This document shows, piece by piece, positions 8,457-51,683 of a stretch of 64,000 nucleotides of DNA. The notes under the pieces are model-generated. The model saw nothing but the letters and a program-made list of their open reading frames with translations. It ran no database searches and had not been told where the DNA came from. Within the stretch, counting starts at the first letter, position 1; every line of letters begins with the position of its first letter. The DNA is taken from assembly GCF_900113415.1 (NCBI RefSeq), contig NZ_FOPH01000002.1, positions 248,001-312,000 on the forward strand, given 5' to 3'. This DNA is from Oribacterium sp. WCC10 (GTDB lineage Bacteria; Bacillota; Clostridia; Lachnospirales; Lachnospiraceae). The position numbers and the translations under genes were made by a program.

Positions 8457-8472
8457 GTTTACGAAAAAAATT

Positions 8473-8509: not shown

Positions 8510-8545
8510 TTGACTTTGATAAGATACATATGGAGCGTGAGAGAA

Positions 8546-9714: not shown

Positions 9715-9718
9715 TGTT

Positions 9719-9989: not shown

Positions 9990-9992
9990 AAC

Positions 9993-33127: not shown

Positions 33128-33162
33128 GCGGTCCAAAGGTATATGAAAGATTCCTTTTTTTA

Positions 33163-35240: not shown

Positions 35241-35302
35241 TTTAATAGCTTTCGGGATAATCAGGGAGTGCCGGTTCGGTAGAGTATAAATATAAATCGG
35301 AG

Positions 35303-35520: not shown

Positions 35521-35643
35521 TTGAATATATACTACGGAAGATTTTTGTGAAAGCAACATATATATGTGACATTTAGTAAGGAATGTGTGGTAAAATCAAT
35601 GAAGATTGTGCAAAATTGATTCTGTGATGGGAGGATGTTTGGA

Positions 35644-36600: not shown

Positions 36601-36634
36601 TAGAAGATCGGAACGCAACATACGGTATAACGTC

Positions 36635-36695
36635 ATTGAAAGTATTTTCAATTTGTTTCAATATTATTGAAATTAAAACCGCAAAGTGATATAAG
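36635..36695 (+). promoter_or_regulatory. Promoter with two palindromic operators
   Basis: TTGAAA (36667-36672), 17-base spacer, TATAAG (36690-36695). Overlapping its -35 is the perfect palindrome TTTCAATATTATTGAAA (36656-36672). Just upstream is ATTGAAA-GTAT-TTTCAAT (36635-36652). Both resemble RpiR-family GAAA-N4-TTTC-type operators, and an RpiR regulator is encoded at 48415. Confidence 0.5.
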
Positions 36696-36706
36696 TAAGT
36701 CCATGG

Positions 36707-36747
36707 GACGCAAAGGAGCGGAAAAAGCTCTTTTGCGTCTCTTTTTT
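36707..36747 (+). terminator. Intrinsic terminator upstream of nan cluster
   Basis: GACGCAAAGGAGC (36707-) pairs with GCTCTTTTGCGTC, followed by T7. It begins only about five bases after the predicted start site of the promoter at 36667-36695, so it may be an attenuator as well as the end of the dehydrogenase transcript. 36748-36961 shows no gene. Confidence 0.75.
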
Positions 36748-36961
36748 TGCGATAAGGCGGTCGCCAACGTGTTAATAGACCATCGGTGATGGGAGATTGT
36801 AATACCGTTTAATACGGATTTGTATATCGCAAGTATGCTTGTGGATATTTGGGGAAGGTTTTTGCCGGAGAAAATCACCCCTTGGTTTCAGTAAAATGTG
36901 AATATTGCACAAATAAAAGTATGGGACCCCCAACATTGAATGTGCAAAATTCGCAATATAT

Positions 36962-37019
36962 GAAAGAACTTTCTCAATGTATGAGATTGATTGCAAGTAA
37001 TTTCTTTCAAAACTATACT
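36962..37019 (+). promoter_or_regulatory. Promoter and operator of nanE cluster
   Basis: TTGCAA (36991-36996), 17-base spacer, TATACT (37014-37019), giving a leader of about 90 bases. GAAAGAACTTTC (36962-36973) is another GAAA-N4-TTTC motif just upstream of the -35. Confidence 0.5.
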
Positions 37020-37114
37020 GATATCATAATTATGATGTAAGGGTTATAGAGCATCATTCCGTTGTATTTACAAAGGAATAATGAATCTGATGTAACTAAA
37101 GGAAGGGGGAAATC

Positions 37115-37822
37115 ATGGACGACAAAATCGAACAAGTCCGCGACAATCTGATCGTATCATGTCAGGCCTTGGAGGATGAGCCGTTACATTCTTCATTTAT
37201 CATGGGGAGAATGGCAAAGGCTGCACAGCAGGGAGGTGCGAAGGGAATCCGTGCCAATACTGTAGAAGATATCACAGAGATCAGGAAAAATGTGGATCTT
37301 CCGATCATAGGCATTATCAAAAGAGATTATCCGGATAGTGAGATCTACATCACTCCTACTATGAAAGAAGTTGATGAACTTATGGCAGTGAAACCGGATA
37401 TCATGGCTCTGGATGCTACCAACCGGAAAAGACCCGGGGATGTGAGCCTTGATGAGTTTTACAGGGAGGTTCGCAGTAAATATCCCGATCAGCTTCTCAT
37501 GGCGGACTGTTCTTCGATTGATGAAGCACTTCACGCAGACGAACTCGGATTTGATTTTATTGGAACAACCATGGTCGGGTATACCTCATATACCAAAGAT
37601 GACAGGATCGAGAGCCATACATTTGAGATCATTCGTGAGATCTTAAAGAAAGTAAAGCATCCGGTTATTGCGGAAGGGAACATTGATACACCGGAAAAGG
37701 CGAGAGAAGTGTTGGATCTCGGCTGCTTTGCAGTGGTTGTGGGCGGTGCCATCACGAGACCGCAGAATATCACAAAAAAGTTCGTTGCGGCAGTGAACAA
37801 CAGACCGAAATATTCTGTATAA
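37115..37822 (+). CDS. nanE: N-acylmannosamine-6-phosphate 2-epimerase
   Basis: 235 residues. An NanE TIM barrel: [20 protein letters not shown], then [47 protein letters not shown] and [20 protein letters not shown], ending [10 protein letters not shown]. It converts ManNAc-6-phosphate to GlcNAc-6-phosphate, feeding NagA and NagB. It heads a same-strand cluster reaching 49254. AAGGAAGGGGG lies before the start. No NanA lyase or sialidase is nearby, so its ManNAc source is unclear. Confidence 0.93.
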
Positions 37823-37862
37823 AGACATTTCGATAAGGCAAAAATTTCAAGGAGATAATAAT

Positions 37863-39131
37863 ATGCAAACGTTACAGGTTATTCTGATTTTAGCAGTATT
37901 TGTGGCAGGCGTAGCTCTTATGATGACCAAAAAACTTCCTGCCATTCTTGCACTTCCGGTTATGGGAATTCTGATCGCAGCAGTTGCGGGAGTTCCGTTT
38001 GTTTCTGCTGACAAAGAAACACAGACCATCACAAACTTTGTTATAACGCAGGGAGCTGCAAAGCTTTCCGGTACTATAGTTGTTACAATTTTCGGTGCAA
38101 TCTTCGCCCGTGTTATACAGAAAGAAGGCATATCCGATGCAATCATCAGAAAAGCAGCGGAGCTTGCAGGTGATAAGGCTATTGCAATCGCGCTTGCCCT
38201 TACTGCAGCCATAGCCATCATCTTTACATCCATGAGCGGAGCAGGCCCTGTGATCATGGTATCACAGATAGCAATACCGCTTATGCTTTCGGCAGGCATC
38301 GCGCCGGTTGTTGCAGCAAGCCTTGTGCTTTTCGGACTTAATATCGGTCTTCTGTTCAATGTTTCACAGTATCAGCTCTATGTGGATACCATCGGAATGG
38401 ACATGGATGTGATAAAGAGCGCATCTCTTGTGATGGGTATAGTTTGTATCATTGTTACAGTGGCCTATATATTTGTGAATGTTAAAAAAGGAGAAACCTC
38501 ACACTGGGCTATGAAAGCCTCTGACAGCAAAGTTACACCTGTGGCTATGATAATGCCTATATTCCCGGTACTTCTCGTTTTTATTTTCAAGATGGATGCC
38601 AATGTTGCTCTCCTGATAGCCATTGTTCTTACTTCACTTATCACAAAGCCTTTGGAAGCGGTTCAGGTTATATCAAGTTCAGTGGTTGAAGGAATCAAGG
38701 ATATAGCCGGTGTTATCGCACTTATGATGGGTATAGGAATTCTTTTAAACGGTGTTGCGGCACAGGCCACTTCAGCACTTATGCAGCCGGTGATTGCGGC
38801 CATACTTCCATCCAACAAGTTTGTCTACATCATTCTCTTTACAATTCTTTCACCGTTGGCACTTTACAGAGGCCCTCTCAATATGTACGGACTTGGAAGC
38901 GGACTTGCAAACATCTTTCTTCAGGCAGGAGCATTATCCGCATCAGCAGTTGGTATGGCACTCAGAAGCACCAGCGTTGTACAGTGTGTATCCGATCCTA
39001 CAAATACCCAGAATGTAATCGTTGCTGATTATGCAAAGGTTGATGTCAATGACATTCTGAAGTCAACATTGCCATATACCATGGTGATGGCACTGGTGAT
39101 TCTTGTTTATACAGCATTTGTATTATTCTGA
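37863..39131 (+). CDS. GntP/CitM-like permease
   Basis: 422 residues with about eleven membrane helices and no signal peptide. The hairpin-type motif FTSMSGAGPVIMVSQIAIP and the LYRGPLNMYGLGSGLANIFL segment suggest the ion-transporter superfamily (gluconate GntP, citrate CitMHS and C4-dicarboxylate permeases), which use proton or sodium symport of organic acids. In the middle of an amino-sugar cluster and beside a hydantoinase, it probably imports an acidic or lactam-type derivative different from the PTS substrate. AAGGAG precedes the ATG; the gap to nanE is 40 bases, so they are co-transcribed. Confidence 0.75.
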   Translation: MQTLQVILILAVFVAGVALMMTKKLPAILALPVMGILIAAVAGVPFVSADKETQTITNFVITQGAAKLSGTIVVTIFGAIFARVIQKEGISDAIIRKAAELAGDKAIAIALALTAAIAIIFTSMSGAGPVIMVSQIAIPLMLSAGIAPVVAASLVLFGLNIGLLFNVSQYQLYVDTIGMDMDVIKSASLVMGIVCIIVTVAYIFVNVKKGETSHWAMKASDSKVTPVAMIMPIFPVLLVFIFKMDANVALLIAIVLTSLITKPLEAVQVISSSVVEGIKDIAGVIALMMGIGILLNGVAAQATSALMQPVIAAILPSNKFVYIILFTILSPLALYRGPLNMYGLGSGLANIFLQAGALSASAVGMALRSTSVVQCVSDPTNTQNVIVADYAKVDVNDILKSTLPYTMVMALVILVYTAFVLF

Positions 39132-39146
39132 CATACAGATGAAGAA

Positions 39147-39225
39147 GTGAGTGAAACGCTGGAAAATGGTGAGCTGCCATCACATGATGTCCTCCGCGGG
39201 CTGACGGATGGCCAGTGTTTCTCAG
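39147..39225. repeat. GAAACGCTGG/CCAGTGTTTC inverted repeat
   Basis: GTGAAACGCTGG pairs with GCCAGTGTTTC at a distance of about 60 bases, with a CAT/ATG inner part. Its ends resemble intergenic repeat family A. Confidence 0.4.
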
Positions 39226-39232
39226 AGTATTT

Positions 39233-39267
39233 CCGGTAGGCACGTCAGACTGTCTGCCGGGATTTTT
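39233..39267 (+). terminator. Internal terminator-like hairpin before hydantoinase gene
   Basis: CCGGTAGGCA pairs with TGTCTGCCGG (one wobble, one mismatch), followed by T5. It may reduce read-through from nanE and the permease into the rest of the cluster. Confidence 0.5.
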
Positions 39268-39336
39268 AAACGGGATTATGCCGGTTTTTTGAACGATACA
39301 TTAACATGCAGAGTCACTTTGGGGAGGTAATTTCAG

Positions 39337-41511
39337 ATGGATAATTCAATGGAAAAACAGGTCAAAACCCGTAAAGTCCGAATTGGAATCGACGTAGGCG
39401 GAACTTTTACGGATGCAGTAGTTATAGATAACGAAACATACGAAATCATTGCAAAAGAAAAGGTTCCAACGACACATCATGCGGAACACGGGGTGGCTGA
39501 TGGTATAGTCCAGGTTATAGATAAAGTGCTTACAGGTAATAATATCTCTCCCGATGATGTGATTTTCATAGCACATGGTACAACTCAGGCAACCAATGCT
39601 CTTTTGGAGGGAGATGTTGCCAGAGTTGGAATTATAGGAATGGGTACAGGCCTTGAGGCAGAAAGAGCCAAAGGTGAGACCAGAGTCGGTGACATTGAAC
39701 TTGCAGCCGGGAAATTCCTTCATACCGAACATTGTTTTATAGATTCAAAGGAGCTTTCCGAAGAAAAAGTCAGAGAGGCTGTCCTTGAGCTGAAGAGTAA
39801 AGGTTGTGAAGTCATCGTTGCTTCCGAGAGTTATTCCGTGGATGATCCGACAAATGAAAAGCGTGTAATAGAAATAGCCCGTGAGTGCGGAATGCTTGCC
39901 ACAGGAGGATATGAAATCTCACAGCTTTATGGTTTGAAGGCCAGGACGCGTACCGCGGTTGTCAATGCAGCCCTTATTCCAAAGATGATGGATACGGCTG
40001 ATATGACGGAGGAGGCGGTTAAAAACTCCGGGATTAAAAAGCCGCTTATGATCATGAGATGTGACGGTGGTGTTATGAGTATAGATGAAGTTCGTAAACG
40101 TCCTATACTTACCATGCTGTCGGGACTTGCAGCTGGTGTTGCCGGAGCTCTCATGTATGAAAAAATAACTGACGGTGTATTTCTGGAGTCCGGAGGAACA
40201 TCCACTGATATTTCAGCCATCAAAGACGGTAAAGTAATGATCAAAAATTCCACCGTCGGCGGACACAAACTGTATCTTACATCTTTGGACGTTCGTACAG
40301 TAGGTATCGCCGGGGGAAGCATGATAGTGGTTGAGGACAGAAAGATTACCGATGTGGGCCCTCGTTCTGCTCATATCGCTGATCTTTGCTATGAGGTATT
40401 TGCAGAACCGGAGTGCTTTGAGGGGGCAAAAGCAGTTATGATTGCACCCCGTCCGGATGATGAAGCAAAGTATGCGGCCATAGAATGTACTGACGGTAGA
40501 AGGTTTTCCCTGACACTTGCAGGAGCTGCAAATATCCTCGGGCTGGTACCGGATTCAGATTATGCGCACGGAAATCGTGATGCAGCTGTAAAGGCATGGG
40601 AGGCACTTGCGGAATATACCGGTAAAAGTGTGGAAGAACTATGTGAAAAAGCCATGGATATAGCCATAGGAAAGGTTAATGAGATAGTTAAGTCTCTTGT
40701 TAAAGACTATGATTTAAATCCAAATCTTATTTATCTTGTAGGCGGAGGCGGATCGGCATCTGTTGTGACACCATATCTCAGTAAGAAATCAGGTATACGT
40801 TTCCGTATAGCGGAAAATGCACCATATATATCGACCATTGGTGTTTCACTTGCCATGGTTCGTGAACAAATAGAGAGAAATGTTGCAAACCCCACAGAGG
40901 ATGATATCCGAAAGATACGTCATGATGTTATGGAAGTCATCACAAGAGCAGGTGCAGATCCAGCAACGGTAGAGATATCCATAGACGTGGACGGTCAGAA
41001 AAACATATTGAGAGCTACCGCAACAGGAGCCACTGAGTTAAGAACCAGGGACAGAAACTCTAAAACTATCAGTGAGGAGCAGCGAGTACAGATTCTCTCG
41101 GAAGGATTGAAGACCTCAGACAGTGCCGTGGAGAAATTTGGTGAGGATGGGCGCTGGCACGGTTACTACGTTAATATTGAAAAGAAGAGTTTCTTCGGAC
41201 TTATGAAGAGCAGAAAAAAAGTGGTCCGCGTGATGGATGATGAAGGTGTTATCAGACTGCAAAAGAATAACGCGAGGGCAATGCTGTTTGAACGAAAGAC
41301 ACTTGGCAGTACATTTCCGGAATTTCTGGACAGCATGACACAGTATAGTGATGCCGGTGCGGTTTTGCCGCGTACATATTTGTTTTTCGGTCAGAAAATG
41401 AGTGATCTGAGTGGAGTTCAGACCAGAGAGCAGCTTCTGAATCTTGCAGAGATGGATTTGGAATTTGTGCCGGAGAATGAAAACATTATTGCGGTATGTG
41501 CAAAGGATTGA
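39337..41511 (+). CDS. Hydantoinase/oxoprolinase family protein (HyuA-like)
   Basis: 724 residues. IGIDVGGTFTDAVVIDNETY, IFIAHGTTQATNALLEGDVA, MRCDGGVMSIDEVRKRPILT and the later VFLESGGTSTDISAIKDG define the HyuA ATP-dependent amidohydrolase fold (ASKHA ATPase). Family members open cyclic amides (hydantoins, 5-oxoproline), usually with a HyuB partner. No HyuB is encoded here, and the C-terminal ~170 residues (VMEVITRAGADPATVEISID onward) form an extra domain. Located among ManNAc/GlcNAc genes, it may act on a sugar lactam or a cyclic amide. GGGGAGG precedes the ATG. Confidence 0.85.
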   Translation: MDNSMEKQVKTRKVRIGIDVGGTFTDAVVIDNETYEIIAKEKVPTTHHAEHGVADGIVQVIDKVLTGNNISPDDVIFIAHGTTQATNALLEGDVARVGIIGMGTGLEAERAKGETRVGDIELAAGKFLHTEHCFIDSKELSEEKVREAVLELKSKGCEVIVASESYSVDDPTNEKRVIEIARECGMLATGGYEISQLYGLKARTRTAVVNAALIPKMMDTADMTEEAVKNSGIKKPLMIMRCDGGVMSIDEVRKRPILTMLSGLAAGVAGALMYEKITDGVFLESGGTSTDISAIKDGKVMIKNSTVGGHKLYLTSLDVRTVGIAGGSMIVVEDRKITDVGPRSAHIADLCYEVFAEPECFEGAKAVMIAPRPDDEAKYAAIECTDGRRFSLTLAGAANILGLVPDSDYAHGNRDAAVKAWEALAEYTGKSVEELCEKAMDIAIGKVNEIVKSLVKDYDLNPNLIYLVGGGGSASVVTPYLSKKSGIRFRIAENAPYISTIGVSLAMVREQIERNVANPTEDDIRKIRHDVMEVITRAGADPATVEISIDVDGQKNILRATATGATELRTRDRNSKTISEEQRVQILSEGLKTSDSAVEKFGEDGRWHGYYVNIEKKSFFGLMKSRKKVVRVMDDEGVIRLQKNNARAMLFERKTLGSTFPEFLDSMTQYSDAGAVLPRTYLFFGQKMSDLSGVQTREQLLNLAEMDLEFVPENENIIAVCAKD

Positions 41512-41513
41512 AT

Positions 41514-42221
41514 ATGACACGGGGAAAGGCACTGTGCATTGTGGAATCATTATCCCATAAGAACTATATGGAATTGTTGCTTAGTCAGGATAAATACTGC
41601 AAATACATCTCAAAAGAACAGTTTCTGAAATATATCGAAGGGGCAATGGAAATCGGAAACTGTAAGGCAGAGGATATTAAATCGGAACAGAAGAATGTCA
41701 CATTTCGGGATATGCCCGGTATCATGAAATCGGAGCCGGGTATCGAAACGGTAACAGGGCCTGGAGGATATCAGATAGCAGCATACACGGTTTTTCAGGG
41801 GAATCACTGTAAAGTGGTACTAAATGAAGATGTGATAGAACTAAAGTTAAAGTGTCTTAAGGATTGGGCAGCGGATGATATATCGAGACAAGGGCTGATA
41901 ACAGAAATAAACAGCTTTGAAAAGCTGAAAGGTCTCCACCTGGCTCATGAGTACTTCCATTGTATCGAGTATTTAAGGTGTGAAAGGGTTTATGAAAAGC
42001 TGGAACCTGCTGAAGTAAAAGTACTTTTCGGCAAAAGCCAAAAGAAAATAAGAACCGTTTCAGAAATCAGTGCCCACAGTTTTGTGAAGTCACTTTTCAG
42101 CCTTTCTGTATCTCCTGTTATGTTGGATTACATAACCATGCTTACGACAGGCATGCTGGATCCTGATGAGTTTCAAAAACAACTGGAGAAGATTCGAATA
42201 GCAAAGGAATCTGTGTGCTAG
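41514..42221 (+). CDS. Hypothetical protein with HExxH motif
   Basis: 235 residues from ATG 41514, three bases after the hydantoinase stop, with AAAGGA upstream. No family is recognised. The segment LKGLHLAHEYFHCIEYLRCE contains HEYFH, the zincin-type HExxH pattern, with Glu residues downstream; a metallohydrolase is possible but a chance match cannot be excluded. No signal peptide or membrane segment is seen. Its tight position between the hydantoinase and the flavin oxidoreductase suggests a shared pathway or accessory role. Confidence 0.65.
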   Translation: MTRGKALCIVESLSHKNYMELLLSQDKYCKYISKEQFLKYIEGAMEIGNCKAEDIKSEQKNVTFRDMPGIMKSEPGIETVTGPGGYQIAAYTVFQGNHCKVVLNEDVIELKLKCLKDWAADDISRQGLITEINSFEKLKGLHLAHEYFHCIEYLRCERVYEKLEPAEVKVLFGKSQKKIRTVSEISAHSFVKSLFSLSVSPVMLDYITMLTTGMLDPDEFQKQLEKIRIAKESVC

Positions 42222-42229
42222 AGACAATC

Positions 42230-42258
42230 AGTGAGTGGCAGACTCTTTTGCCACTCAC
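42230..42258. repeat. GTGAGTGGCA hairpin (family B), copy 1
   Basis: AGTGAGTGGCA pairs with TGCCACTCACA. It belongs to a family also found at 56239-56266 and 58696-58740. It lies inside the cluster between the HExxH gene and the flavin oxidoreductase gene. Confidence 0.6.
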
Positions 42259-42283
42259 ATCATCTGAGCAAAACGGAGAAAAT

Positions 42284-43636
42284 ATGAATACATATAAGTA
42301 TAATGGCAGAGAAATCCCGGTGATAGGTGGATATGACACGGTGATAGTCGGTGGTGGAACTGCCGGGGCATCCTGCGGAATAAGTGCAGGGAGAGAAGGA
42401 AACCGTGTGCTGATAATAGAAAAAGGCATATCCCTTGGCGGAGCGGCAGTGAATGCATTGGTCACACCGGTTATGGAGTCTTTTGTACCCCACGAGCAGA
42501 ATTTCAGGGATATAGAAGAGGAATTAAAGAAACGTGGAGTCACTACACGGGATGGAATAATGGAATATGTATATTCAACGCCTGAAACGAGGCAAGAGGT
42601 TCTGGAGGAATTATTCCTGGGAACCGGTGGGGATATACTGTATGATACCGTCTTTTCCGATGTGGTGGTAGAAGAAAAAAGGATAAAGTATCTTATAGTA
42701 TCCAATGTTTCCGGGCTCACGGCCGTTAAGGCATCCCAGTTTGTGGATGCTACAGGTGACGCAGTTCTGTCCCGGGCAGCAGGAGTTCCGTATACATCAG
42801 GGGATGATGAAGGGAATAATCAGATATCAAGTCTTCGATTTGAAATGGGAGGTATAGATATAAACAGATACAGGGATTACTGTCTGTCTCTGGAAGATAC
42901 ATTCTCGCCTTTGGTAAATGGATATTTCTTTGAATCAGCAATGGTCAAAAATAAGGGATTCAAGCTGGAACCTCTATTCCGAAAAGGAATTGAAGCAGGA
43001 ATTCTGAAGGAAGAGGACCTGTTTTATTATCAGTGCTTTTCACTTCCGGGAGAACCCGGTTGTATGTCTTTCAACTGCCCTCACCTTTCAAAGATGAAGA
43101 ACAACACGGATGCCTTCGAGCGTTCCCGTTCACTTTCGGAGGGCAGAAAGATGATCAGAAGGCTTGTGACATTTTTACAGAAAATGATGCCGGGATTTGA
43201 AAACAGCTATCTGATCCGTATCGCCAATGAAATCGGTATCCGTGAGTCATACAGGATAGTAGGAAAATATGTCCTCAGGGAAGAAGACTATATAAAAAGG
43301 GCAAGGTTTGACGATGCAGTTGCGAAGGGTGACTGGTATATAGATGTTCACTCGGCAACAAAAGGTCTTGTTCATATGGAAAAGTATAAAAAGGGTGAGT
43401 ATTATGAGATACCTTATCGTTGTCTGATAAATGATAAAGTGGATAATCTGCTTACTATTGGCCGCTGCATCTCAACCACGTTTCTGGTTCAGGCAAGTAT
43501 TCGGGTTCAGGCCTGTGTGACCGATCAGGGAGACTGTGCGGGAAAAGCGTGTGCAAGGGCATTGAAGGCCGGTGTGGAACTTGCTGATTTTGACGGAAAA
43601 GGGTTATGTACAGGGAAGGCAGATAATGGAAAATAG
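42284..43636 (+). CDS. FAD-dependent oxidoreductase
   Basis: 450 residues from ATG 42284 (CGGAGAAAA upstream). The dinucleotide-binding VIVGGGTAGASCGISAGREG, then LGGAAVNALVTPVME, QFVDATGDAVLSRAAGVPY and the C-terminal LLTIGRCISTTFLVQASIRV match the FAD_oxidored family (PF12831). The reaction is unknown; relatives oxidise or dehydrogenate sugars, xanthan-type or amino-sugar derivatives. Its stop overlaps the next ATG, so it is translationally coupled to the ROK kinase gene. In this cluster it may reduce or oxidise an amino-sugar intermediate before phosphorylation. Confidence 0.82.
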   Translation: MNTYKYNGREIPVIGGYDTVIVGGGTAGASCGISAGREGNRVLIIEKGISLGGAAVNALVTPVMESFVPHEQNFRDIEEELKKRGVTTRDGIMEYVYSTPETRQEVLEELFLGTGGDILYDTVFSDVVVEEKRIKYLIVSNVSGLTAVKASQFVDATGDAVLSRAAGVPYTSGDDEGNNQISSLRFEMGGIDINRYRDYCLSLEDTFSPLVNGYFFESAMVKNKGFKLEPLFRKGIEAGILKEEDLFYYQCFSLPGEPGCMSFNCPHLSKMKNNTDAFERSRSLSEGRKMIRRLVTFLQKMMPGFENSYLIRIANEIGIRESYRIVGKYVLREEDYIKRARFDDAVAKGDWYIDVHSATKGLVHMEKYKKGEYYEIPYRCLINDKVDNLLTIGRCISTTFLVQASIRVQACVTDQGDCAGKACARALKAGVELADFDGKGLCTGKADNGK

Positions 43637-44606
43637 ATATCTTGGCATAGATATAGGCGGAACGACAGTTAAATTCGGACTGGTAACAGAAGAGGGAATA
43701 ATATTGGAAAAAGCCGGCTTTTCTGTGGATTTCGACAGTTATGAGACACCGGTTCTTGAGACTGTTCTGAAACATGCAAAAGAGTTTTGCAAGGAGCCGG
43801 TTACAGCTATAGGAGTGTCAGCTACAGGACAGATTGACAGTATAGAAGGAAGAGTCATTGGAGCTGCCGGACACATTCCGAACTACATAGGAAGTGAGAT
43901 AAAGAAAGAACTGGAGAAATATTTTCATGTTCCGGTGTATGTGGCCAATGATGCAAACTGCGCACTTCTGGGGGAGCAGTGGCTTGGCGCCGCAAAGGGA
44001 TGTAAAGATGTAGTTATGGTGACACTGGGAACCGGAGTAGGGGGTGGAATACTGACAGGTGGACATCTTCTTACAGGAAATAGAGGTCTTGGTGGTGAGA
44101 TAGGACATATCATAATCAATGTAGACGGAAACCTCTGTACCTGTGGAAACAGAGGGTGTCTTGAAGAGTATGCGTCCACTAAGGCTCTGGTTTCTTCCAT
44201 AAGAGATATGGTAACAAAGGGAGTCATCTCCAAAGAATTCTTTGGGGTGACTAGTGATAGAGATGTCACAGGGATTAACGGTAAATTGATCTTTGAAAAG
44301 TTAAGACGCCATATGGATACTTCCGACCATAAGGAATTAGAGAAGGCGGTGGATTTCTGGGAGGAAAATATTGCTGCCGGAATAGTGAGTCTCATTCACA
44401 TTTTTGAACCGGAGAAGGTATTGATAGGTGGTGGTGTCAGTGCGGCAGGAGAGTGTTTCATGGCACCTTTAAGTGAGAAGATTTATTCACACATCATGCC
44501 GCGTTTCAGAGATCTTCTTGTGATAGAGCCGGCAAAACTGAAAAATGACGCCGGATTGATAGGGGCAGTATATTACACTATTAAGTCCGAAGGATTTTGT
44601 GAATAA
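43626..44606 (+). CDS. ROK-family sugar kinase (ManNAc kinase-like)
   Basis: 326 residues from ATG 43626, overlapping the preceding gene. LGIDIGGTTVKFGLV is the phosphate-1 loop, VANDANCALLGEQWLGAAKG the catalytic-Asp region, GTGVGGGILTGGHLL the phosphate-2 loop, and GHIIINVDGNLCTCGNRGCL the zinc-binding ROK signature. Next to nanE, nagB and nagA it is best read as an N-acetylmannosamine kinase (NanK), although glucokinase-like activity cannot be excluded. It would supply ManNAc-6-phosphate to NanE. Confidence 0.87.
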   Translation: MENRYLGIDIGGTTVKFGLVTEEGIILEKAGFSVDFDSYETPVLETVLKHAKEFCKEPVTAIGVSATGQIDSIEGRVIGAAGHIPNYIGSEIKKELEKYFHVPVYVANDANCALLGEQWLGAAKGCKDVVMVTLGTGVGGGILTGGHLLTGNRGLGGEIGHIIINVDGNLCTCGNRGCLEEYASTKALVSSIRDMVTKGVISKEFFGVTSDRDVTGINGKLIFEKLRRHMDTSDHKELEKAVDFWEENIAAGIVSLIHIFEPEKVLIGGGVSAAGECFMAPLSEKIYSHIMPRFRDLLVIEPAKLKNDAGLIGAVYYTIKSEGFCE

Positions 44607-44631
44607 TGGATTTTTGTGAGGGACTATTGTT

Positions 44632-45390
44632 ATGATAAGAATCTATCGTGCAAAGAACTATCAGGAATTATCAAGAAAGGCAGCCAATATCATTTCCGCG
44701 CAGATCATCATAAAGCCGAACTGCGTTCTTGGACTGGCAACAGGTTCATCACCTATAGGAACCTACAGGCAGCTTACGGAATGGTATGAAAAGGGGGATC
44801 TGGATTTCAGAGAGGTAAAAACCGTAAATCTCGATGAGTATGTGGGGCTTTCGGGAACGGATCATCAGTCTTACCGGTATTTTATGAATGACAATCTTTT
44901 TAATCATGTAAATATCGACAGGCAGAACACCAATGTACCAAACGGAAAAGCGGCGGATCTTCAGGCGGAATGCAAACGGTACAATGAGCTCATACGTTCT
45001 CTTGGGGGTATTGATATGCAGCTCCTCGGAATAGGCAGAAACGGTCATATAGGGTTTAATGAGCCGGAAGAGGCATTTGAGAAGGAAACACATATTGTTA
45101 ATCTGACAGACAGTACTATTGAAGCCAATGCAAGACTGTTTGACAATATAGCAGATGTTCCCGGGCAGGCCATAACCATGGGCATAAAGTCCATCATGCA
45201 GGCTAAAAGAATTCTTCTTATAGCAAGCGGAAAGGATAAGGCAGATGCCATTCAAAAGACCCTGTTCGGTCCCGTTTCGCCGAAGGTGCCTGCTTCAATC
45301 CTTCAGATTCATCAGAATCTCACGGTGGTTGCGGATGATGATGCATTGTCTGAATGTGGACTTGGTTCGGAGGGAATGATTGTATGCTGA
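44632..45390 (+). CDS. nagB: Glucosamine-6-phosphate deaminase
   Basis: 252 residues. LGLATGSSPIGTYRQLTEWY, VNLDEYVGLSGTDHQSYRYF and LGIGRNGHIGFNEPEEAFE are family signatures, including the catalytic Asp and His. It isomerises and deaminates glucosamine-6-phosphate to fructose-6-phosphate and ammonia, linking the cluster to glycolysis. GAGGGA lies before the start. The gene end overlaps the nagA start by seven bases, so the two are translationally coupled. Confidence 0.95.
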   Translation: MIRIYRAKNYQELSRKAANIISAQIIIKPNCVLGLATGSSPIGTYRQLTEWYEKGDLDFREVKTVNLDEYVGLSGTDHQSYRYFMNDNLFNHVNIDRQNTNVPNGKAADLQAECKRYNELIRSLGGIDMQLLGIGRNGHIGFNEPEEAFEKETHIVNLTDSTIEANARLFDNIADVPGQAITMGIKSIMQAKRILLIASGKDKADAIQKTLFGPVSPKVPASILQIHQNLTVVADDDALSECGLGSEGMIVC

Positions 45391-46553
45391 TCAGGAATGG
45401 ACTGGTTTATACCGAAAATTTCAGATTTGAAAAAATGGATATAGAGGTTAAAGATGGTGTCATCGTGGATATGTATGAGACATCATTATGCTGTGATAAT
45501 GAGCGGGAACAAGCCTCAGACTGTGTTTCTTCTGAAGAAGTGGTAGATGCCGGAGGGAAATGGGTTCTTCCGGGACTTACGGATATTCATTTTCACGGTT
45601 GTGTTTCCTTTGATACCAATGATGCTACTGATGAAGCTTTGCATGCCATGGCGGTATATCAGAAGAATTCCGGGGTGACTACCATATGTCCGACAACCAT
45701 GACTCTTCCCAAGGATCAGGTGGAACAAATCGTTAAAAAAGCAAAAGAATATTCCTTACATCAAAAAGCAGATGAGGCTGCGATTGTAGGAGTCAATCTG
45801 GAGGGACCCTTCATCTCAAAAGATAAGGTGGGTGCGCAGAACCCCCTGTATGTAACGGAACCGGATATACTGTTTATGAAGAGGCTGGTTAAGGAGACAG
45901 AACATTTCCCAAAACTCATAACTGTTGCACCTGAGGTGACAGGGGCAATGGAGTTTATCCGAGAGATGCATGAGGATATACGGATTTCCATAGGCCATAC
46001 AATGACAGATTATGAGACGGCAAAAGAAGCGTATAAAAAGGGTGCCGGGCATCTTACGCATATGTTCAATGCCATGCCGGGAATACATCATCGCAAGCCG
46101 GGGCCGATTGCAGCTGCCCGGGAGACTGAAGGTGTTACCTGTGAAATTATCTGCGACGGTATTCATGTAGATCCGGCAGCCATAAGACTTGCCTTTTCCA
46201 TGATGGGAGAGGATAAAATGATTCTGATTTCCGACAGCTGCAGAGCCTGCGGAATGCCGGATGGCCGGTATGAACTTGGCGGTCAGGATATTTATAAACA
46301 TGACCATGCAGCCTTTCTTAAGGACGGCACATTGGCTGCCAGCACCAGCAATGTGTATGAGTGTATGATACATGCCATCGAATTTGGAGTCCCCAAGGAA
46401 TGGGCGATTCGCGCGGCAAGCTATAATCCTGCAAAGGCAGTGGGCATATTGGACAGGTACGGAAGCCTGAGACCCGGAAAGACTGCAAATATACTGATAG
46501 TGGATCCTGAAAGGAACTATCACCTTGATAGAGTGATATGCGACGGAAAATAA
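45384..46553 (+). CDS. nagA: N-acetylglucosamine-6-phosphate deacetylase
   Basis: 389 residues from ATG 45384, overlapping nagB. The metal-binding GLTDIHFHGCVSFDTNDA, VNLEGPFISKDKVGAQNP, ISIGHTMTDYETAKEAYKKG, HLTHMFNAMPGIHHRKPGPI and LISDSCRACGMPDGRYELGG are typical NagA motifs. It removes acetate from GlcNAc-6-phosphate, the product of NanE and of the PTS transporter encoded next. The GDG-type substrate loop and metal ligands look complete. GGAGGG is positioned before the start. Confidence 0.95.
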   Translation: MLIRNGLVYTENFRFEKMDIEVKDGVIVDMYETSLCCDNEREQASDCVSSEEVVDAGGKWVLPGLTDIHFHGCVSFDTNDATDEALHAMAVYQKNSGVTTICPTTMTLPKDQVEQIVKKAKEYSLHQKADEAAIVGVNLEGPFISKDKVGAQNPLYVTEPDILFMKRLVKETEHFPKLITVAPEVTGAMEFIREMHEDIRISIGHTMTDYETAKEAYKKGAGHLTHMFNAMPGIHHRKPGPIAAARETEGVTCEIICDGIHVDPAAIRLAFSMMGEDKMILISDSCRACGMPDGRYELGGQDIYKHDHAAFLKDGTLAASTSNVYECMIHAIEFGVPKEWAIRAASYNPAKAVGILDRYGSLRPGKTANILIVDPERNYHLDRVICDGK

Positions 46554-46670
46554 AAGAACTAAAACAGATGAAATGGTGAAAGTACTTTCGGAGATTGGTG
46601 AATATATACAAATTATAATAATGCGGCAGTATACATGTAGTGACATATCCACAAAGACGACGAAATTTTT

Positions 46671-46713
46671 AAAAGAGCTTTCAGCATGGGGGTTACATGT
46701 TGAAAGCTCTTTT
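46671..46713 (+). terminator. Intrinsic terminator after nagA
   Basis: AAAAGAGCTTTCA pairs with TGAAAGCTCTTTT, with inner CATG/CATG pairing, making a perfect stem that can act in both directions. It divides the nan/nag part from nagE. Confidence 0.8.
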
Positions 46714-46739
46714 ACGCATTGATATATTGTGATTAAAGA

Positions 46740-46753
46740 ACTTTGTACAAAGT
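46740..46753. promoter_or_regulatory. Palindrome upstream of nagE
   Basis: ACTTTGTACAAAGT is a perfect 14-base palindrome 79 bases before the nagE start, a plausible regulator site. No match to a named operator is claimed. Confidence 0.4.
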
Positions 46754-46831
46754 AAACAGACAGAGATGTGATTGATGTTTTTGGTGGAAACTGCAAAGCA
46801 TCGAAAGATAACGTTTAAAGGGGAGAAGAAT

Positions 46832-48337
46832 ATGTTTAAACAACTGCAAAAATTAGGAAAAGCATTTATGCTTCCTATAGCAATCCTGCCGGCTGCAGGT
46901 CTGCTGCTCGGAATCGGAAGCTCGCTTTCCAATCCTACAACCATTGCGGCATATCCGGCATTGAATCAGCCATGGCTTCAGGCGATATTCGGTATCATGA
47001 GTGCAGCCGGAAACACTGTGTTCGGCAATCTTATGCTTCTTTTGTGTGTTGGTCTCTGCGTTGGTCTTGCAAAGAGAGATAAAGGTACAGCAGCATTGGC
47101 AGGCGTAGTAGCATATCTTGTCATGAATGCTTCTATAGCAGCCATGCTCAGCATTTTCAAACCGGATGGCAATGCTATAGACACCGGTGCCATAGGCGCC
47201 ATAGTTGTAGGATGCGTAACAGTATATCTGCACAATCGCTATCACAATATCCAGCTTCCGCAGGTATTGGGATTCTTTGGCGGATCAAGATTTGTACCTA
47301 TAGTTTCTTCGTTTACAGCTATTTTCATAGGTATGATCTTCTTTATCATCTGGCCTCCGTTCCAGAATGCATTGATTGCATCAGGAGATTTCATTGCAAA
47401 AGCCGGAGTTATAGGAACATTTTTCTATGGATTCCTGATGAGACTTTGCGGCGCTGTGGGACTTCATCATATGATCTACCCTATGTTCTGGTATACTGAA
47501 CTTGGTGGTGTCCAGATTGTCGGCGGACAGCAGATAGCCGGAGCACAGAACATTTTCTTCGCTCAGCTTGCAGATCCGAATCATGTTGGTCTTTTTACAG
47601 ACGGAACCCGTTTCTTTGCGGGAAGATTCGCAACGATGATGTTTGGATTACCGGGATCGGCTCTTGCTATGTATCATTGCGTTGCAAAGGATAAGAGAAA
47701 AACCTACGGTGGATTATTTCTGGGTGTGGCACTGACTTCATTCCTTACAGGTATCACAGAACCGCTTGAGTTCATGTTCCTGTTTGTTGCTCCATGGTTA
47801 TATGTATGGCATTCATTCCTTGACGGTGTTTCATTCCTTATCGCAGATGCGCTGAATATCTCCATCGGAAATACATTCTCAGGCGGATTTATAGATTTCC
47901 TTCTTTTCGGTGTGCTTCAGGGCAATGCAAAAACCAACTGGATGCTTGTTCCTGTAGTGGGGGCATGCTGGTTTGCGCTTTACTACTTCTCTTTCAGATT
48001 CCTGATCACAAAATTCAATGTTCAGACACCGGGAAGAGGTGATGATGAAACTGTTGAAGACACAAAGAGCAACCTTGTTACAAAGGCAAGCTTAAAGGAA
48101 GATGCTGTAAAGATAATAGAGGCATTGGGAACAGCTGAGAACATCGAGGATGTTGATGCATGCGTTACCAGACTCAGAGTTTCGGTCAAGGATTCATCAA
48201 AGGTGGATCGGGATAAGTTAAAGGCCATCGGTGCAGTTGAAGTTTTTGATGTAAAGGGCGGAATTCAGGCTGTTTACGGAGCCAAGGCTATCCTGTACAA
48301 GAATCACATTGCGGAAATCCTGAATCTGGATGACTGA
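46832..48337 (+). CDS. nagE: PTS GlcNAc/glucose-type transporter, IICB
   Basis: 501 residues from ATG 46832 (AAAGGGGAG upstream). The N-terminal MFKQLQKLGKAFMLPIAILP opens an EIIC domain of about ten membrane helices, with the GITEPLEFMFLFVAPWLY sugar-binding segment. A C-terminal EIIB domain (about 415-500) has the phosphorylated cysteine in DACVTRLRVSV. No EIIA domain is present, so an unlinked IIA must donate phosphate. Context with nagA and nagB supports GlcNAc uptake and phosphorylation. Placed between nagA and an RpiR regulator. Confidence 0.88.
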   Translation: MFKQLQKLGKAFMLPIAILPAAGLLLGIGSSLSNPTTIAAYPALNQPWLQAIFGIMSAAGNTVFGNLMLLLCVGLCVGLAKRDKGTAALAGVVAYLVMNASIAAMLSIFKPDGNAIDTGAIGAIVVGCVTVYLHNRYHNIQLPQVLGFFGGSRFVPIVSSFTAIFIGMIFFIIWPPFQNALIASGDFIAKAGVIGTFFYGFLMRLCGAVGLHHMIYPMFWYTELGGVQIVGGQQIAGAQNIFFAQLADPNHVGLFTDGTRFFAGRFATMMFGLPGSALAMYHCVAKDKRKTYGGLFLGVALTSFLTGITEPLEFMFLFVAPWLYVWHSFLDGVSFLIADALNISIGNTFSGGFIDFLLFGVLQGNAKTNWMLVPVVGACWFALYYFSFRFLITKFNVQTPGRGDDETVEDTKSNLVTKASLKEDAVKIIEALGTAENIEDVDACVTRLRVSVKDSSKVDRDKLKAIGAVEVFDVKGGIQAVYGAKAILYKNHIAEILNLDD

Positions 48338-48357
48338 TGTAATATTTGTGTTTTTTT

Positions 48358-48395
48358 AAAACGTTCATGGGTATAATAGATCCGTGAACGTTTTT
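48358..48395. terminator. Intrinsic terminator after nagE
   Basis: AAAACGTTCA pairs with TGAACGTTTT around a GG/CC-closed loop, with T-runs on the 3' side. It is only 20 bases before the RpiR gene start. Confidence 0.8.
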
Positions 48396-48414
48396 GTTAT
48401 GGCAGGAGAAAACT

Positions 48415-49254
48415 ATGCAGTATGAGAAAGACATTTTACCTATCATAAAATTGCACTATGAGGACTTTTCGGTTGCTGAAAGGACCGCGGCGGATTATTT
48501 TCTGGACAATAAAGTGAAAGATGACTTTTCGATAAAGGAAGTGGCATCCAGGCTTTTTATATCTGAAGCCACACTTTCGAGATTTGCAAAGAAGTGCGGA
48601 TATACAGGTTACAGACAGTTTGTTTTTCACTATCAGGAGAGATTTTCGGCGGAAAGCAAGAGACCTTTAAGAGAGGAAACAAGACATATTCTCAATACCT
48701 ATCAGGAACTTTTAAATCATTCGTATACTCTTGTGGATGAAAAACAGATTAAAAAAGTTGCGGGGTTAATAACCGGAAAAAAGAGAGTCTTCATATACGG
48801 TAAAGGATCGTCTGGAATAGCAGGCAGTGAATTTGCCTTGCGCCTTATGAGACTGGGTATAGACATCGACTGTATAACAGATTCACATGTGATGAATATG
48901 AATTCTGCAGTTATAAATGAAGACTGTGCAGTCATAGGCATAACCGTCAGCGGAAACACAGCAGTAGTACTCAGGGCATTGCAGACCGCAAAGAAAAAAG
49001 GCGCAGACACTTTTTTGATAAGTTCAGTTCACAGAGTGGAATGGGATAGCTTTTGCGATGAACTGCTCCCGATACCTACAAAGGAAATGCTGGATCTCGG
49101 TAAACTTATATCCCCTCAATTTCCGATTCTGATATTGCTGGATATTCTCTATGCAGATATACTTCAGATAGACAAATCAGGTAAAGAAGCATTGCATGAG
49201 ATGACACTGGCGGAGTTGAATTCGGAAGGAAATATGAGACTTTGTTCATATTAG
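48415..49254 (+). CDS. RpiR/MurR-family transcriptional regulator
   Basis: 279 residues from ATG 48415 (GGCAGGAG upstream). An N-terminal HTH_6 domain (about 1-77) includes SIKEVASRLFISEATLSRFA and the following KKCGYTGYRQF. The SIS sugar-phosphate isomerase-like domain (about 110-240) includes VFIYGKGSSGIAGSEFALRL and VIGITVSGNTAVVLRALQTA. RpiR regulators sense phosphosugars; here GlcNAc-6-phosphate, ManNAc-6-phosphate or GlcN-6-phosphate are likely signals. Candidate GAAA-N4-TTTC operators lie at 36635-36672 and 36962-36973. It ends the amino-sugar cluster. Confidence 0.9.
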   Translation: MQYEKDILPIIKLHYEDFSVAERTAADYFLDNKVKDDFSIKEVASRLFISEATLSRFAKKCGYTGYRQFVFHYQERFSAESKRPLREETRHILNTYQELLNHSYTLVDEKQIKKVAGLITGKKRVFIYGKGSSGIAGSEFALRLMRLGIDIDCITDSHVMNMNSAVINEDCAVIGITVSGNTAVVLRALQTAKKKGADTFLISSVHRVEWDSFCDELLPIPTKEMLDLGKLISPQFPILILLDILYADILQIDKSGKEALHEMTLAELNSEGNMRLCSY

Positions 49255-49423
49255 AGTCTTATTGATTAGGCGCGATAGGCCGGTGTGGAAATGCCCGGGA
49301 TGGGTGACAGGCCTTGCCTTATCTTAGTTTCGTAAGAATGCTGATGCTCTCAGGCGGTGAAGCTGTTTCGGCCTGAGACGAATTTCCTACGGAGTGTTAC
49401 CGGTTATCGGTATGTTAAGAAAA

Positions 49424-49466
49424 TGCAAGGGATGGGTGACGACCCATACCCTTGCATTTTCTGTAT
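49424..49466. terminator. Bidirectional intrinsic terminator
   Basis: AAAATGCAAGGG pairs with CCCTTGCATTTT, with inner TGGGT/ACCCA pairing. It can serve the RpiR gene and the leftward flavoprotein gene. A smaller CTCAGGC/GCCTGAG hairpin lies at about 49349-49378. No gene is supported in 49255-49490. Confidence 0.75.
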
Positions 49467-49490
49467 CATTTCAAATAATCATCGTAAGCA

Positions 49491-51683
49491 TTAGACTTCA
49501 GCAGCCGCATTCTCTCCGGCTACCTTGCCGTAGTACATAGCCATGGAGTGGCTCACACCCTTAAGACCGATAGGATACTCCATTCCAAAACGTCCGCCCT
49601 GCATATTGCCGGCAACATAGAGACCCTTGATGATCTCGCCGCATACCTGGCGGCCCTGTTCGTCTGTCACTTCAGTGAAGGTATGGCAGTCCTCATCGGA
49701 TTCAAGGCCACCTATACATACAAGCATGATGGCTGTTGTGAACTGGTCTGCATAGAAAGGCGCTGTATCCACGGGCATGAGACGGCTTGGAACCTTGTGG
49801 AAGTCTTCATCATAGCCGGATTCTGCAAGCTCATTATATCTCTTGATAGAATCAAGTGCCTGCTTCTGAGCGACTGTATCATCAGGATATACCATAGCAA
49901 CAAGCTCTTCCAGTGTATCTGCCTTCAGACATCTTCCGTCCTGAACTGCAGCTTCAAGCTGATAAGGGCTCTTCCAGTTACGATAGGTTTGATTATTCTT
50001 AGGTGCTTCATCAATGGATGCATAATCTTCAAAATAGCATGCTCCGCCATGGGCTGCAGGCATATGAGTTACCTGCTCCGGCCAGTTTGCATCGAAGAAC
50101 TGCCAGCTCTGCATAAGTCTTGTCTGCTCAATCTGGTTCTCGAGTTGCTGACCCGGGAGATCCTCACACATAAAACGCTTTCCATCCATATCGAGGTTCA
50201 GGAAGCCTGCATTACCCATAACACCTACGCCGGAAAGATCGGCGCCTCCACCCATATGGTGGATCATAGGAGCGTTGTAACCCATGATCTTTGCGCCTGC
50301 CCATGCACCCATTCTGAGACCGTCACCCTGGTTTGTAGGTACACCGTTCACGTCAAAGGAGGTGAAGAGTCTGTTGTTTGCGTGAGTCTTCATTACATCA
50401 GGAGCAAAGTGTTTCATGGCTGCATCATTGGAACCGTAATCCCCGGTAGAAAGGATAACACCCTTCTTTGCAGTTATCTTCAGGTACTTGCCCTTATTCG
50501 GAGACTGAGGGTCATCGTTTAATGCATATACTCCGACGCATTTTCCGTCTTTCATGATGAGTTTCTTTCCGAAGTGTCCGAAATATGCTTCAACATTTCC
50601 GGTTGTGAGAGCCTTGTCCCAGTTTGCTGTGAATGTTGCAGACTGGTTGGGAAGGAACTCGACTGAAGTAGGATAGCATGGGAAGCGTTCTTCCTTCCAG
50701 TTGTAAACATGCTCATTTCCATTTGCATCCTTGTATGAAGGAAGAGGACGGAAGATAGGAACCATGAAATCGTCGGCATTTTCATCTTCGATCGGCTGTC
50801 TTGTCTCATCGGCTATGAACAGGTGCTCGTCAGCCTCTGTCCACCAGTCGAAGGCTTCACCGATATTGTCAGCCCACTTCTTTGCGATGCTTCTCTTTAC
50901 ACGGTAGGAGGATTCATTTACATGAGAATCGATGATCTCGTCAACTTCTTCTCTTGATAATGCTCTCTCGGGCCAGCGGGCATTGAGCTTAGGGCTGTTG
51001 ATGACCGCATACTCTCCTGAACGGCAGCATGGTGCAGCTGCACCGTCTATACCGATGACTGTTGCACCAGCTTCTGCGGCACTTCTTGCAGCTGCGACAC
51101 CTGCAACTCCCAGACCGACAACTATAACGTCTGCTTCTGCTTCACTATATACATCACTTTCACTGATCTCAGGTTCTGCTCCGAGCCAGTCATCCTGAGA
51201 AGCACCTGCGGGAGATCCTGCTCCTGCAGCTTCAGATACTTCCTCGCCCTTTGCCTGCGCGATACAATTTGAGGCAGCTTTCTTCACGGCATTGGATGTT
51301 ACTGTTGCACCGGAAACGCCATCCACTTCTGCGCTCTGTGCTTCAAGGATTGCTTTTGAAAGAGGATCCGGGGTTGCGGTTCCGATACCCTCGGTTTCTC
51401 CTGAAGCATCAATCTGAACATCGGTTATGCTGTTTTCATCAAAGGTCATTGTAACAGTGATATCACTCTCAAGCCCTTTTTCAGTTGCAGTATATGTGCC
51501 CGGTGTGTAGAGAGTCTTTTTTACAGCCTCTGTTGCGGCTTCAGTGGTTGCAGCCGCGGATGTTGCTTCCGGTGCAGAAGAGTTACATCCTGTAAGCCCT
51601 CCTATAACCGCTCCGGCTGTCAATGTCATAGCGCCTGCTGCCGTGCCTCTGAGAAATTCTCTTCTGGAAATAAGTTTAGCCAT
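49491..51683 (-). CDS. Exported FMN/FAD-binding reductase (flavocytochrome c/urocanate reductase-like)
   Basis: 730 residues. The N-terminus ISRREFLRGTAAGAMTLTAG followed by LTGC shows a twin-arginine-type signal with a lipoprotein-like cysteine. An FMN-binding domain (about 58-145) has the covalent-FMN motif DGVSGATVTS. A FAD-binding fumarate-reductase-like domain follows (ADVIVVGLGVAGVAAARSAA and GDGLRMGAWAGAKIMGYNAP). It probably reduces a small unsaturated or other organic acceptor outside the membrane, with electrons from a membrane donor not visible here. It diverges from a LysR gene, its likely regulator. AAGGAAGA precedes the ATG. Confidence 0.88.
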   Translation of the reverse strand: MAKLISRREFLRGTAAGAMTLTAGAVIGGLTGCNSSAPEATSAAATTEAATEAVKKTLYTPGTYTATEKGLESDITVTMTFDENSITDVQIDASGETEGIGTATPDPLSKAILEAQSAEVDGVSGATVTSNAVKKAASNCIAQAKGEEVSEAAGAGSPAGASQDDWLGAEPEISESDVYSEAEADVIVVGLGVAGVAAARSAAEAGATVIGIDGAAAPCCRSGEYAVINSPKLNARWPERALSREEVDEIIDSHVNESSYRVKRSIAKKWADNIGEAFDWWTEADEHLFIADETRQPIEDENADDFMVPIFRPLPSYKDANGNEHVYNWKEERFPCYPTSVEFLPNQSATFTANWDKALTTGNVEAYFGHFGKKLIMKDGKCVGVYALNDDPQSPNKGKYLKITAKKGVILSTGDYGSNDAAMKHFAPDVMKTHANNRLFTSFDVNGVPTNQGDGLRMGAWAGAKIMGYNAPMIHHMGGGADLSGVGVMGNAGFLNLDMDGKRFMCEDLPGQQLENQIEQTRLMQSWQFFDANWPEQVTHMPAAHGGACYFEDYASIDEAPKNNQTYRNWKSPYQLEAAVQDGRCLKADTLEELVAMVYPDDTVAQKQALDSIKRYNELAESGYDEDFHKVPSRLMPVDTAPFYADQFTTAIMLVCIGGLESDEDCHTFTEVTDEQGRQVCGEIIKGLYVAGNMQGGRFGMEYPIGLKGVSHSMAMYYGKVAGENAAAEV

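Follow-up and report, generated by a model that had tools for sequence, protein, structure and literature searches.

A conserved module of three genes, encoding a permease, an orphan HyuA-type ATPase and a zincin-like protein with an HExxH motif, is attached in bacterial genomes to many sugar and sugar-acid pathways, often together with a flavoprotein and repeatedly beside nanE, the gene for N-acetylmannosamine (ManNAc) 6-phosphate 2-epimerase. We describe it from a window of 64,000 nucleotides of Oribacterium sp. WCC10 (assembly GCF_900113415.1, contig NZ_FOPH01000002.1, positions 248,001 to 312,000; G000:C22:248001-312000 in our numbering, G000 being the window's own draft genome, 97% complete), where an operon joins the lower amino-sugar route (NanE, a ROK-family kinase, NagA and NagB) to the module and the flavoprotein. 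The module is real, undescribed and testable: no description of it was found among the papers listed in searches of the open-access literature, which left subscription papers mostly outside, and its HExxH family has no Pfam match, in agreement with a previous sequence-only reading that had picked out this cluster as a candidate for an undescribed system. Since relatives join the module to many sugar pathways, it probably serves the uptake and opening of unusual acidic sugar derivatives.

Conservation and coupling of the module

A HyuA scan of genome contigs returned 19 loci. The permease is present in all 19, the HExxH protein in 18 and a flavoprotein of the PF12831 type in 17; the only miss of the HExxH protein (L019) is on a stretch that ends just after HyuA, and in L023 the HExxH gene is not adjacent to HyuA. 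The HExxH profile matched 35 of the 397 genomes sampled from the window's family and, in the phylum sample, 20 of 398. Altogether 83 loci were counted after four duplicates (L077, L078, L079, L143) had been dropped, and a full HyuA open reading frame (ORF) was called in 76 of them. The permease lies directly upstream of HyuA in 71 of these 76 and the HExxH gene directly downstream in 68, the whole order permease–HyuA–HExxH being complete in 65. Because many of the loci were picked by the HExxH profile, the frequency of HExxH among them is biased, and the fairer figures are those of the 19 HyuA-chosen loci and of the profile searches of the 398 phylum genomes. The 83-locus counts are also slightly low, since ORF picking lost the HExxH gene of L016 and the HyuA genes of L012 and L014, all of which are present.

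The phylum sample was chosen by neither gene, and 19 of its 22 genomes with the HyuA family are also positive for the HExxH profile. Among the remaining HyuA-family genomes, G729 has a diverged HExxH copy recognized by a deeper profile, G464 has its HyuA at a contig end and G749 has no HExxH gene next to its HyuA. In the reverse direction, 19 of the 20 HExxH-positive genomes have this HyuA, the exception (G792) being a weak partial match. Two profile searches of one phylum sample thus rule out chance adjacency of the two genes. Divergence is most tightly shared by the permease and HyuA (Spearman 0.86, 75 loci), less so by HyuA and the HExxH protein (0.57, 72 loci) and by HyuA and the flavoprotein (0.30, 39 loci). 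With a copy no farther than 7.5 kb from the module in 42 of the 83 loci, the flavoprotein is a frequent partner and not a constant one; the window's copy retrieved only NAD/FAD-binding-type matches from solved structures. The co-occurrence check suggested by the sequence-only reading, of the HyuA, HExxH and flavoprotein genes with nanE, gave a mixed outcome, with nanE present in 7 of 83 loci and the flavoprotein in 42.

As a separate observation, the permease and HyuA genes of L178 (G749; 5497-10359) are followed by an ORF that reads as a pyridoxal-phosphate-dependent amino-acid decarboxylase, and no HExxH match was obtained there.

The orphan HyuA family

The HyuA family is sharply bounded. 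A profile of 60 sequences was scored against the best two first-look candidates of each of the 398 phylum genomes, a limit that may hide additional paralogues. Full-length matches numbered 24, spread over 22 genomes, and all reached 908 bits or more. Below them stood a single fragment of 582 bits at a contig end, and no other match exceeded 209 bits; among the weaker matches listed, alignment is for the most part confined to the first ~340 of 718 positions. The AlphaFold model of the window HyuA (predicted local distance difference test, pLDDT, 87) found its best Foldseek match in N-methylhydantoinase 9h03 (E 4e-34, TM-score by query 0.60). Six structures (9h03, 5svc, 5m45, 5l9w, 5svb, 6yra) match at E 4e-34 to 8e-25, with TM-scores by query of 0.51-0.60 and root-mean-square deviations of 6-15 over 620-763 alignment columns; these partners are chains of N-methylhydantoinase, acetone/acetophenone carboxylase and caprolactamase. 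Sequence alignment to them mainly stops near position 340.

The family shares with the HyuAB and CapAB enzymes (hydantoinase, 5-oxoprolinase, caprolactamase) the HyuA-type ATPase fold and the Pfam domains, and a metal-dependent partner is plausible for it as well. It differs in a C-terminal half that is hardly aligned by sequence and in its motifs. The phosphate-2 motif (DxGGT) carries Glu (E284) in place of Asp in 60/60 sequences, whereas the Asp is present in the aligned N-methylhydantoinase, CapA and Apc alpha; GPRSxHI occurs in 60/60 and PGPxCYG in 0/60, while canonical HyuA proteins carry SAGAxPGPxCYG at this site. In the phosphate-1 motif the same alignment (A3) has DVGGTFTDA in 34/60 sequences and forms such as DVGGTHTKA in 18/60.

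The most conspicuous difference concerns the partner subunit. HyuB, reported missing from the window by the sequence-only reading, is absent from the whole draft genome (PF02538, 0 matches), and it was not found in 49 of 53 HExxH-positive genomes, being present in four; a HyuB encoded elsewhere in the genome was therefore rejected. According to a study of caprolactamase (PMC8453981), HyuA-type subunits are thought to phosphorylate, the HyuA-type chain activating the lactam with ATP and the partner HyuB-type chain supplying the metal site. Against this background, a zinc-type protein where HyuB would be expected is suggestive, and the non-homologous HExxH zincin becomes the candidate partner of the module HyuA.

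The HExxH zincin-like family

Neither Pfam nor NCBIfam has a family that matches the HExxH protein. Its motif is kept in 78 of 78 homologous ORFs, and an alignment of 73 homologues, in which mean column identity is 19%, shows H145, E146, H149, E184 and F190 without exception. The gene is under purifying selection (omega 0.07-0.25 in the eight close pairs that gave a value), which together with the 78 homologues rules out a chance ORF, and in all eight close pairs with both genes it accumulates non-synonymous changes 2 to 6 times as fast as HyuA does. The model is a compact fold of high confidence (pLDDT 95), for which Foldseek returned no solved structure at E <=0.001. The top weak matches are proteases: the best is MATCAP (E 0.038), and 6mdw, a DNA-protein-crosslink protease entry, has a probability of 0.92 but an E of 0.45. 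With gluzincin metallopeptidases (HExxH...E) the family has in common the motif, the downstream Glu and a confidently predicted compact fold, and it differs from them in lacking a Pfam family and a significant Foldseek match. No relatives were found in the plasmid collection at E 1e-5.

The window operon

The sequence-only reading had described ten same-strand genes with several overlaps; all ten are found on the + strand from 37115 to 49254, and their coordinates and tight spacing hold:

37115..37822, +, nanE, ManNAc-6-phosphate 2-epimerase (PF04131 246.6 bits; NF002231 323 bits, cut-off 189)
37863..39131, +, permease, the module's first gene, labelled 'GntP/CitM-like' (sub-cut-off DcuC 28.4 bits, CitMHS 15.2 bits)
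39231..39262, +, terminator-like hairpin of 12 pairs in the 205-base gap between permease and HyuA
39337..41511, +, orphan HyuA-type ATPase with a family-specific C-terminal half (PF01968 220 bits, PF05378 95 bits)
41514..42221, +, HExxH zincin-like protein (H145 E146 xx H149, downstream E184)
42287..43636, +, FAD-dependent oxidoreductase (PF12831 324 bits)
43629..44606, +, ROK-family sugar kinase (PF00480; below NCBIfam kinase cut-offs)
44632..45390, +, nagB, glucosamine-6-phosphate deaminase (TIGR00502 305 bits, cut-off 236.9)
45384..46553, +, nagA, N-acetylglucosamine (GlcNAc) 6-phosphate deacetylase (TIGR00221 318.8 bits, cut-off 225.65)
46832..48337, +, phosphotransferase system (PTS) IIBC of glucose/GlcNAc type, labelled 'nagE' (glcB 514 vs 592, nag 422 vs 553; neither cut-off reached)
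48415..49254, +, RpiR-family regulator with a SIS domain (PF01418, PF01380)

Of the labels given to these genes from sequence, NanE, NagA and NagB pass the NCBIfam cut-offs, while those of the permease, the ROK kinase and nagE remain below them and are assigned at the superfamily level only. The ROK protein scores 127 against a cut-off of 283 for the ManNAc kinase subfamily and 201 against 260 for ROK glucokinase; a ManNAc kinase is plausible. The permease is probably an anion carrier of the DcuC/CitMHS type, judging by its sequence. The nanE at 37115..37822 is the sole NanE match in the draft genome. It is separated from the permease by 40 bases, the gap between HyuA and HExxH is 2 bases (with an upstream ATG the two overlap by 16 bases), and the flavoprotein and ROK genes overlap by 8 bases, nagB and nagA by 7.

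Pathways joined to the module in relatives

The neighbours of the module, counted within 7.5 kb in the 83 loci, are diverse. Besides nanE (7 loci) and nagA and nagB (5), they include an Ldh2-type dehydrogenase (11, never together with the flavoprotein), a zinc-dependent alcohol dehydrogenase (11), DUF386/YhcH (13), PfkB (8), UxuA, 2-keto-3-deoxy-6-phosphogluconate (KDPG) aldolase and an HxlA-like protein (4 each), and GH38 and GH130 (2 each). Some loci combine the module with genes for uronates, mannosides or arabinosides/rhamnosides, others with no such genes: in L008, L010 and L013 it forms a four-gene operon with the flavoprotein alone. Single or paired cases add GH127 together with BKACE and a C4-acid kinase (L022), a sialate-acetylesterase-family gene (L081), a mannitol-dehydrogenase-family gene, UxuB-like by sequence reading (L140), and, after module and flavoprotein, a sulfatase with a BadF-type ATPase (L092, 4816-7309), hinting at sulfated amino sugars. 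Some neighbours look unrelated, namely enolase (L094), YicC (L084) and a subtilase (L083). The regulators are of RpiR, LacI, GntR, DeoR, IclR or ROK-like type, and no type is common to the loci.

The HyuA tree has one branch mostly with the flavoprotein, which holds the window, and another without it, which holds the Ldh2 loci. The flavoprotein requires 7 changes on this tree (shuffled mean 26), Ldh2 requires 3 (shuffled mean 9.6) and nanE adjacency 4 (shuffled mean 6.8, minimum 4); the loci share ancestry, and neither the tree changes nor the locus counts are independent events.

Two further proteins recur near the module. An unnamed protein of ~230 amino acids is found beside it in L024, L086, L131, L133, L135 and L139, in the first four of these between a ROK-type gene and the permease; representatives have no Pfam or NCBIfam match. 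DUF4127, of which no mention was found in the open-access literature searched, accompanies the module in L012, L014 and L017, with GH38 also present in L012 and L017.

The link to ManNAc and the sialate pathway

The link of the extra genes to nanE, ROK and nag genes, proposed in the sequence-only reading, stands in part. C. aminophilum (L006/L011) and L007 share a collinear arrangement of nanE, rpiR, module, ROK, nagB and nagA, the association recurs at the counts and with the four tree changes given above, and NanE, adjacent or not, is encoded in 11 of the 13 genomes of the window's HyuA subclade (G000, G828-G838, G582); the two without it, G833 and G835, have DUF4127 beside the module, G833 also GH38. 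In the phylum sample NanE reaches at least 95 bits in 44 of 398 genomes. The module is, however, found without nanE in 76 of the 83 loci, so the permease, HyuA, HExxH and flavoprotein genes are not specific to ManNAc. A four-gene pathway dedicated to making ManNAc was set aside, most fetched modules having other neighbours, and the ManNAc-specific reading is left partly supported.

Could a standard sialate pathway account for the cluster? The window's genome has three DHDPS-family genes, none of which reaches the sialate-lyase cut-off; the best nanA score is 132.6 bits (cut-off 382), near that of its dapA-grade paralogue (126). The curated cut-off is strict: none of the 29 genomes and just 1 of 14 controls reach it. 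A NanA-grade lyase was not seen in G000, G828, G829 and G831, the genomes with module, nanE and nag genes together (best scores 127-133 bits), nor in G845 (142). Since the window's genome and four of the five relatives with a linked nanE show no NanA-grade gene, the standard sialate route does not explain the set, as the sequence-only reading had held, and it was set aside with the strictness of the cut-off as a caution. The cluster has in common with the nan operon (NanA, NanK, NanE, NagA, NagB) the NanE, NagA and NagB enzymes and a ROK kinase; it differs in containing the module and in having no sialate lyase, either in place or at lyase grade elsewhere in the draft genome. No sialidase or sialate transporter is among the genes annotated in or next to the cluster; the rest of the window and the genome were not searched for them.

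One of the DHDPS-family genes (G000:C22:50009-50878, L145) lies near ORFs that read as PdxA-like, YhcH/DUF386-like and aldehyde-dehydrogenase-like, and its region looks like another sugar-acid cluster of the same genome.

Possible function of the module

What could the module do in this operon? The permease would import a carboxylated sugar derivative, on which the flavoprotein would perform one redox step. HyuA may activate a carbonyl or amide of the imported compound with ATP, and the metal centre of the zincin, in place of the metal subunit HyuB, would hydrolyse the activated intermediate. The sugar released in the window operon would be ManNAc or a close relative, which could pass through phosphorylation by the ROK kinase, epimerisation by NanE, deacetylation by NagA and deamination by NagB, ending as fructose-6-phosphate; relatives may use this front end to feed other sugars or sugar acids into other pathways. 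We favour this scheme of a module front end on a lower amino-sugar route as our best explanation, although tentatively, and would not be surprised to see it fail as a whole. It draws on the conserved gene order, the co-divergence of permease and HyuA, the coupling of HyuA and HExxH in a sample chosen by neither gene and the absence of HyuB; on the resemblance of the HyuA fold to N-methylhydantoinase, carboxylase and caprolactamase chains and the invariance of the zincin motif; on neighbours acting on acidic or amino sugars (UxuA, KDPG aldolase, DUF386, the sialate-acetylesterase and mannitol-dehydrogenase families, sulfatase); and on the four tree changes of the nanE association, with NanE but no NanA-grade gene in the window's genome.

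It also draws on FXV78_RS16940-16965, the R. gnavus operon that agaro-oligosaccharides induce most strongly (log2 fold change 4.14-4.35; PMC11581127). The paper lists DUF386, a hydantoinase, a hypothetical protein predicted as 'Peptidase', mannonate dehydratase (UxuA), YiaK and a hypothetical protein, regarded by the authors as a single six-gene operon (PMC11581127). By gene names, and not by sequence, this is the set of L096, L097 and L105 (Ldh2, permease, HyuA, HExxH, DUF386, UxuA); given the YiaK listed there, the operon would belong to the Ldh2 branch without the flavoprotein and not to that of the window. PMC11581127 is the sole paper found among those listed from the open-access literature that names apparent module genes.

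Several observations weigh against our explanation. Carriers of the permease's type usually move small anions. The invariant Glu at the phosphate-2 position means that the ATP chemistry of HyuA may differ, and the zincin is the fastest-evolving part of the module (mean identity 23% against 49% for HyuA), which is odd for a subunit accepting a defined intermediate. G749 has a permease and HyuA with no adjacent HExxH gene, and L021 and L022 have no flavoprotein match. NanE is present in 10 of the 22 HyuA-family genomes and in 34 of the 376 others, a richness that lifestyle alone could produce, and the nanE-linked relative G837 (L016) has three lyase-like genes of 190-220 bits. Lastly, the R. gnavus authors think that the operon's dehydratase and dehydrogenase barely aid agaro-oligosaccharide breakdown and suggest a resistance role (PMC11581127).

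The fast evolution of the zincin gives weight to a different arrangement, in which it is a protease whose target, to be matured or removed, is HyuA, the permease or a regulator, and in which HyuA either carries out the chemistry by itself or assists the permease. The invariance of only the active-site residues and F190, a non-synonymous rate above that of HyuA in every close pair despite purifying selection, the weak resemblance to MATCAP and 6mdw, the HyuA of G749 without an adjacent zincin and the tighter co-divergence of permease and HyuA would all fit; the loci share no single type of regulator, however, and no Foldseek match reaches E <=0.001, and we regard a protease as unlikely, if deserving serious attention. 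HyuA could instead be a kinase, possibly a ring-opening one, acting on an acidic or anhydro-sugar rather than an amide hydrolase. The actin-fold kinase AnmK is a ring-opening kinase on 1,6-anhydro-N-acetylmuramic acid, sugar kinases of the actin/Hsp70 fold match the HyuA model weakly, and the partners of the module are enzymes of sugars and sugar acids; oligosaccharides with 3,6-anhydro-galactose ends induce the R. gnavus operon (PMC11581127). The hydantoinase and carboxylase folds nevertheless fit the model far better (E 4e-34 to 8e-25, against 7e-8 and weaker for the kinases), and the window already has a ROK kinase, other loci having PfkB or FGGY kinases, which makes a kinase role improbable.

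The module may also have a substrate unrelated to the ordinary ManNAc/GlcNAc salvage operon that happens to surround it, as the lack of a nanE within 7.5 kb of it at 76 of 83 loci, the operons of module and flavoprotein alone (L008, L010, L013) and the terminator-like hairpin separating permease from HyuA would suggest. The four changes needed for nanE adjacency on the HyuA tree, the collinearity of L006/L011 and L007 with the window and the 40 bases between nanE and permease speak for a closer bond, and we give such a coincidence a low probability. Least likely by far is a standard sialate pathway served by a diverged lyase of the DHDPS family that is encoded elsewhere in the genome: there are three DHDPS paralogues, one of them, at G000:C22:50009, beside ORFs reading as PdxA-like and YhcH/DUF386-like, and the nanA cut-off of 382 bits is as strict as stated, but the best score of the window's genome hardly exceeds that of the dapA-grade copy, the nanE-adjacent DHDPS genes of G837, G292 and G230 reach 190-205 bits, and C. 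aminophilum (G828) has a single match to the nanA model, of 133 bits.

If HyuA and the zincin do act together as in our preferred scheme, they might constitute an ATP-dependent hydrolase of a new class: HyuA would activate an amide or cyclic derivative of an acidic sugar, and an HExxH metalloprotein with no relation to HyuB would open it. Such an enzyme would here lead from a carboxylated N-acyl amino sugar to ManNAc without the help of a lyase, and elsewhere it would serve uronates, mannosides and other sugars; we put this forward as a speculation with the chances against it. Annotation by name would assign the central gene of the module to hydantoin metabolism, while the genes around it suggest acidic and amino sugars. 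The identity of the substrate would give a function to the unnamed zincin, the orphan HyuA and the carrier families together and, if the R. gnavus operon is a member, would explain its response to agaro-oligosaccharides as well.

Transcription signals and flanking genes

A terminator-like hairpin of 15 pairs lies at 36705-36741, 5' of nanE, and with the one between permease and HyuA it indicates that the gene set may be more than one transcript. The hairpin at 39231..39262 is a possible attenuator; a comparable one occurs in 9 of 42 permease–HyuA gaps of at least 60 bases, for example in L007 and L104. The whole scan gave 16 terminator-like sites against 9.4 (standard deviation 3.5) expected, and 28 promoter-like sites against 28.3 expected, that is, at chance level. 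One of the latter, at 46700, falls in the 278-base gap 5' of the PTS IIBC gene, which is possibly on its own transcript and was not seen in the stretches retrieved for the syntenic relatives L006, L007 and L011. No RNA element was found in 33000-52000 at Rfam gathering scores.

Downstream of the operon, a second flavoprotein (49491-51683, -) with FMN_bind and FAD_binding_2 domains and a weak match to a twin-arginine translocation signal stands back to back with a LysR regulator (51845-52825, +); we take it to be of the fumarate/urocanate-reductase type.

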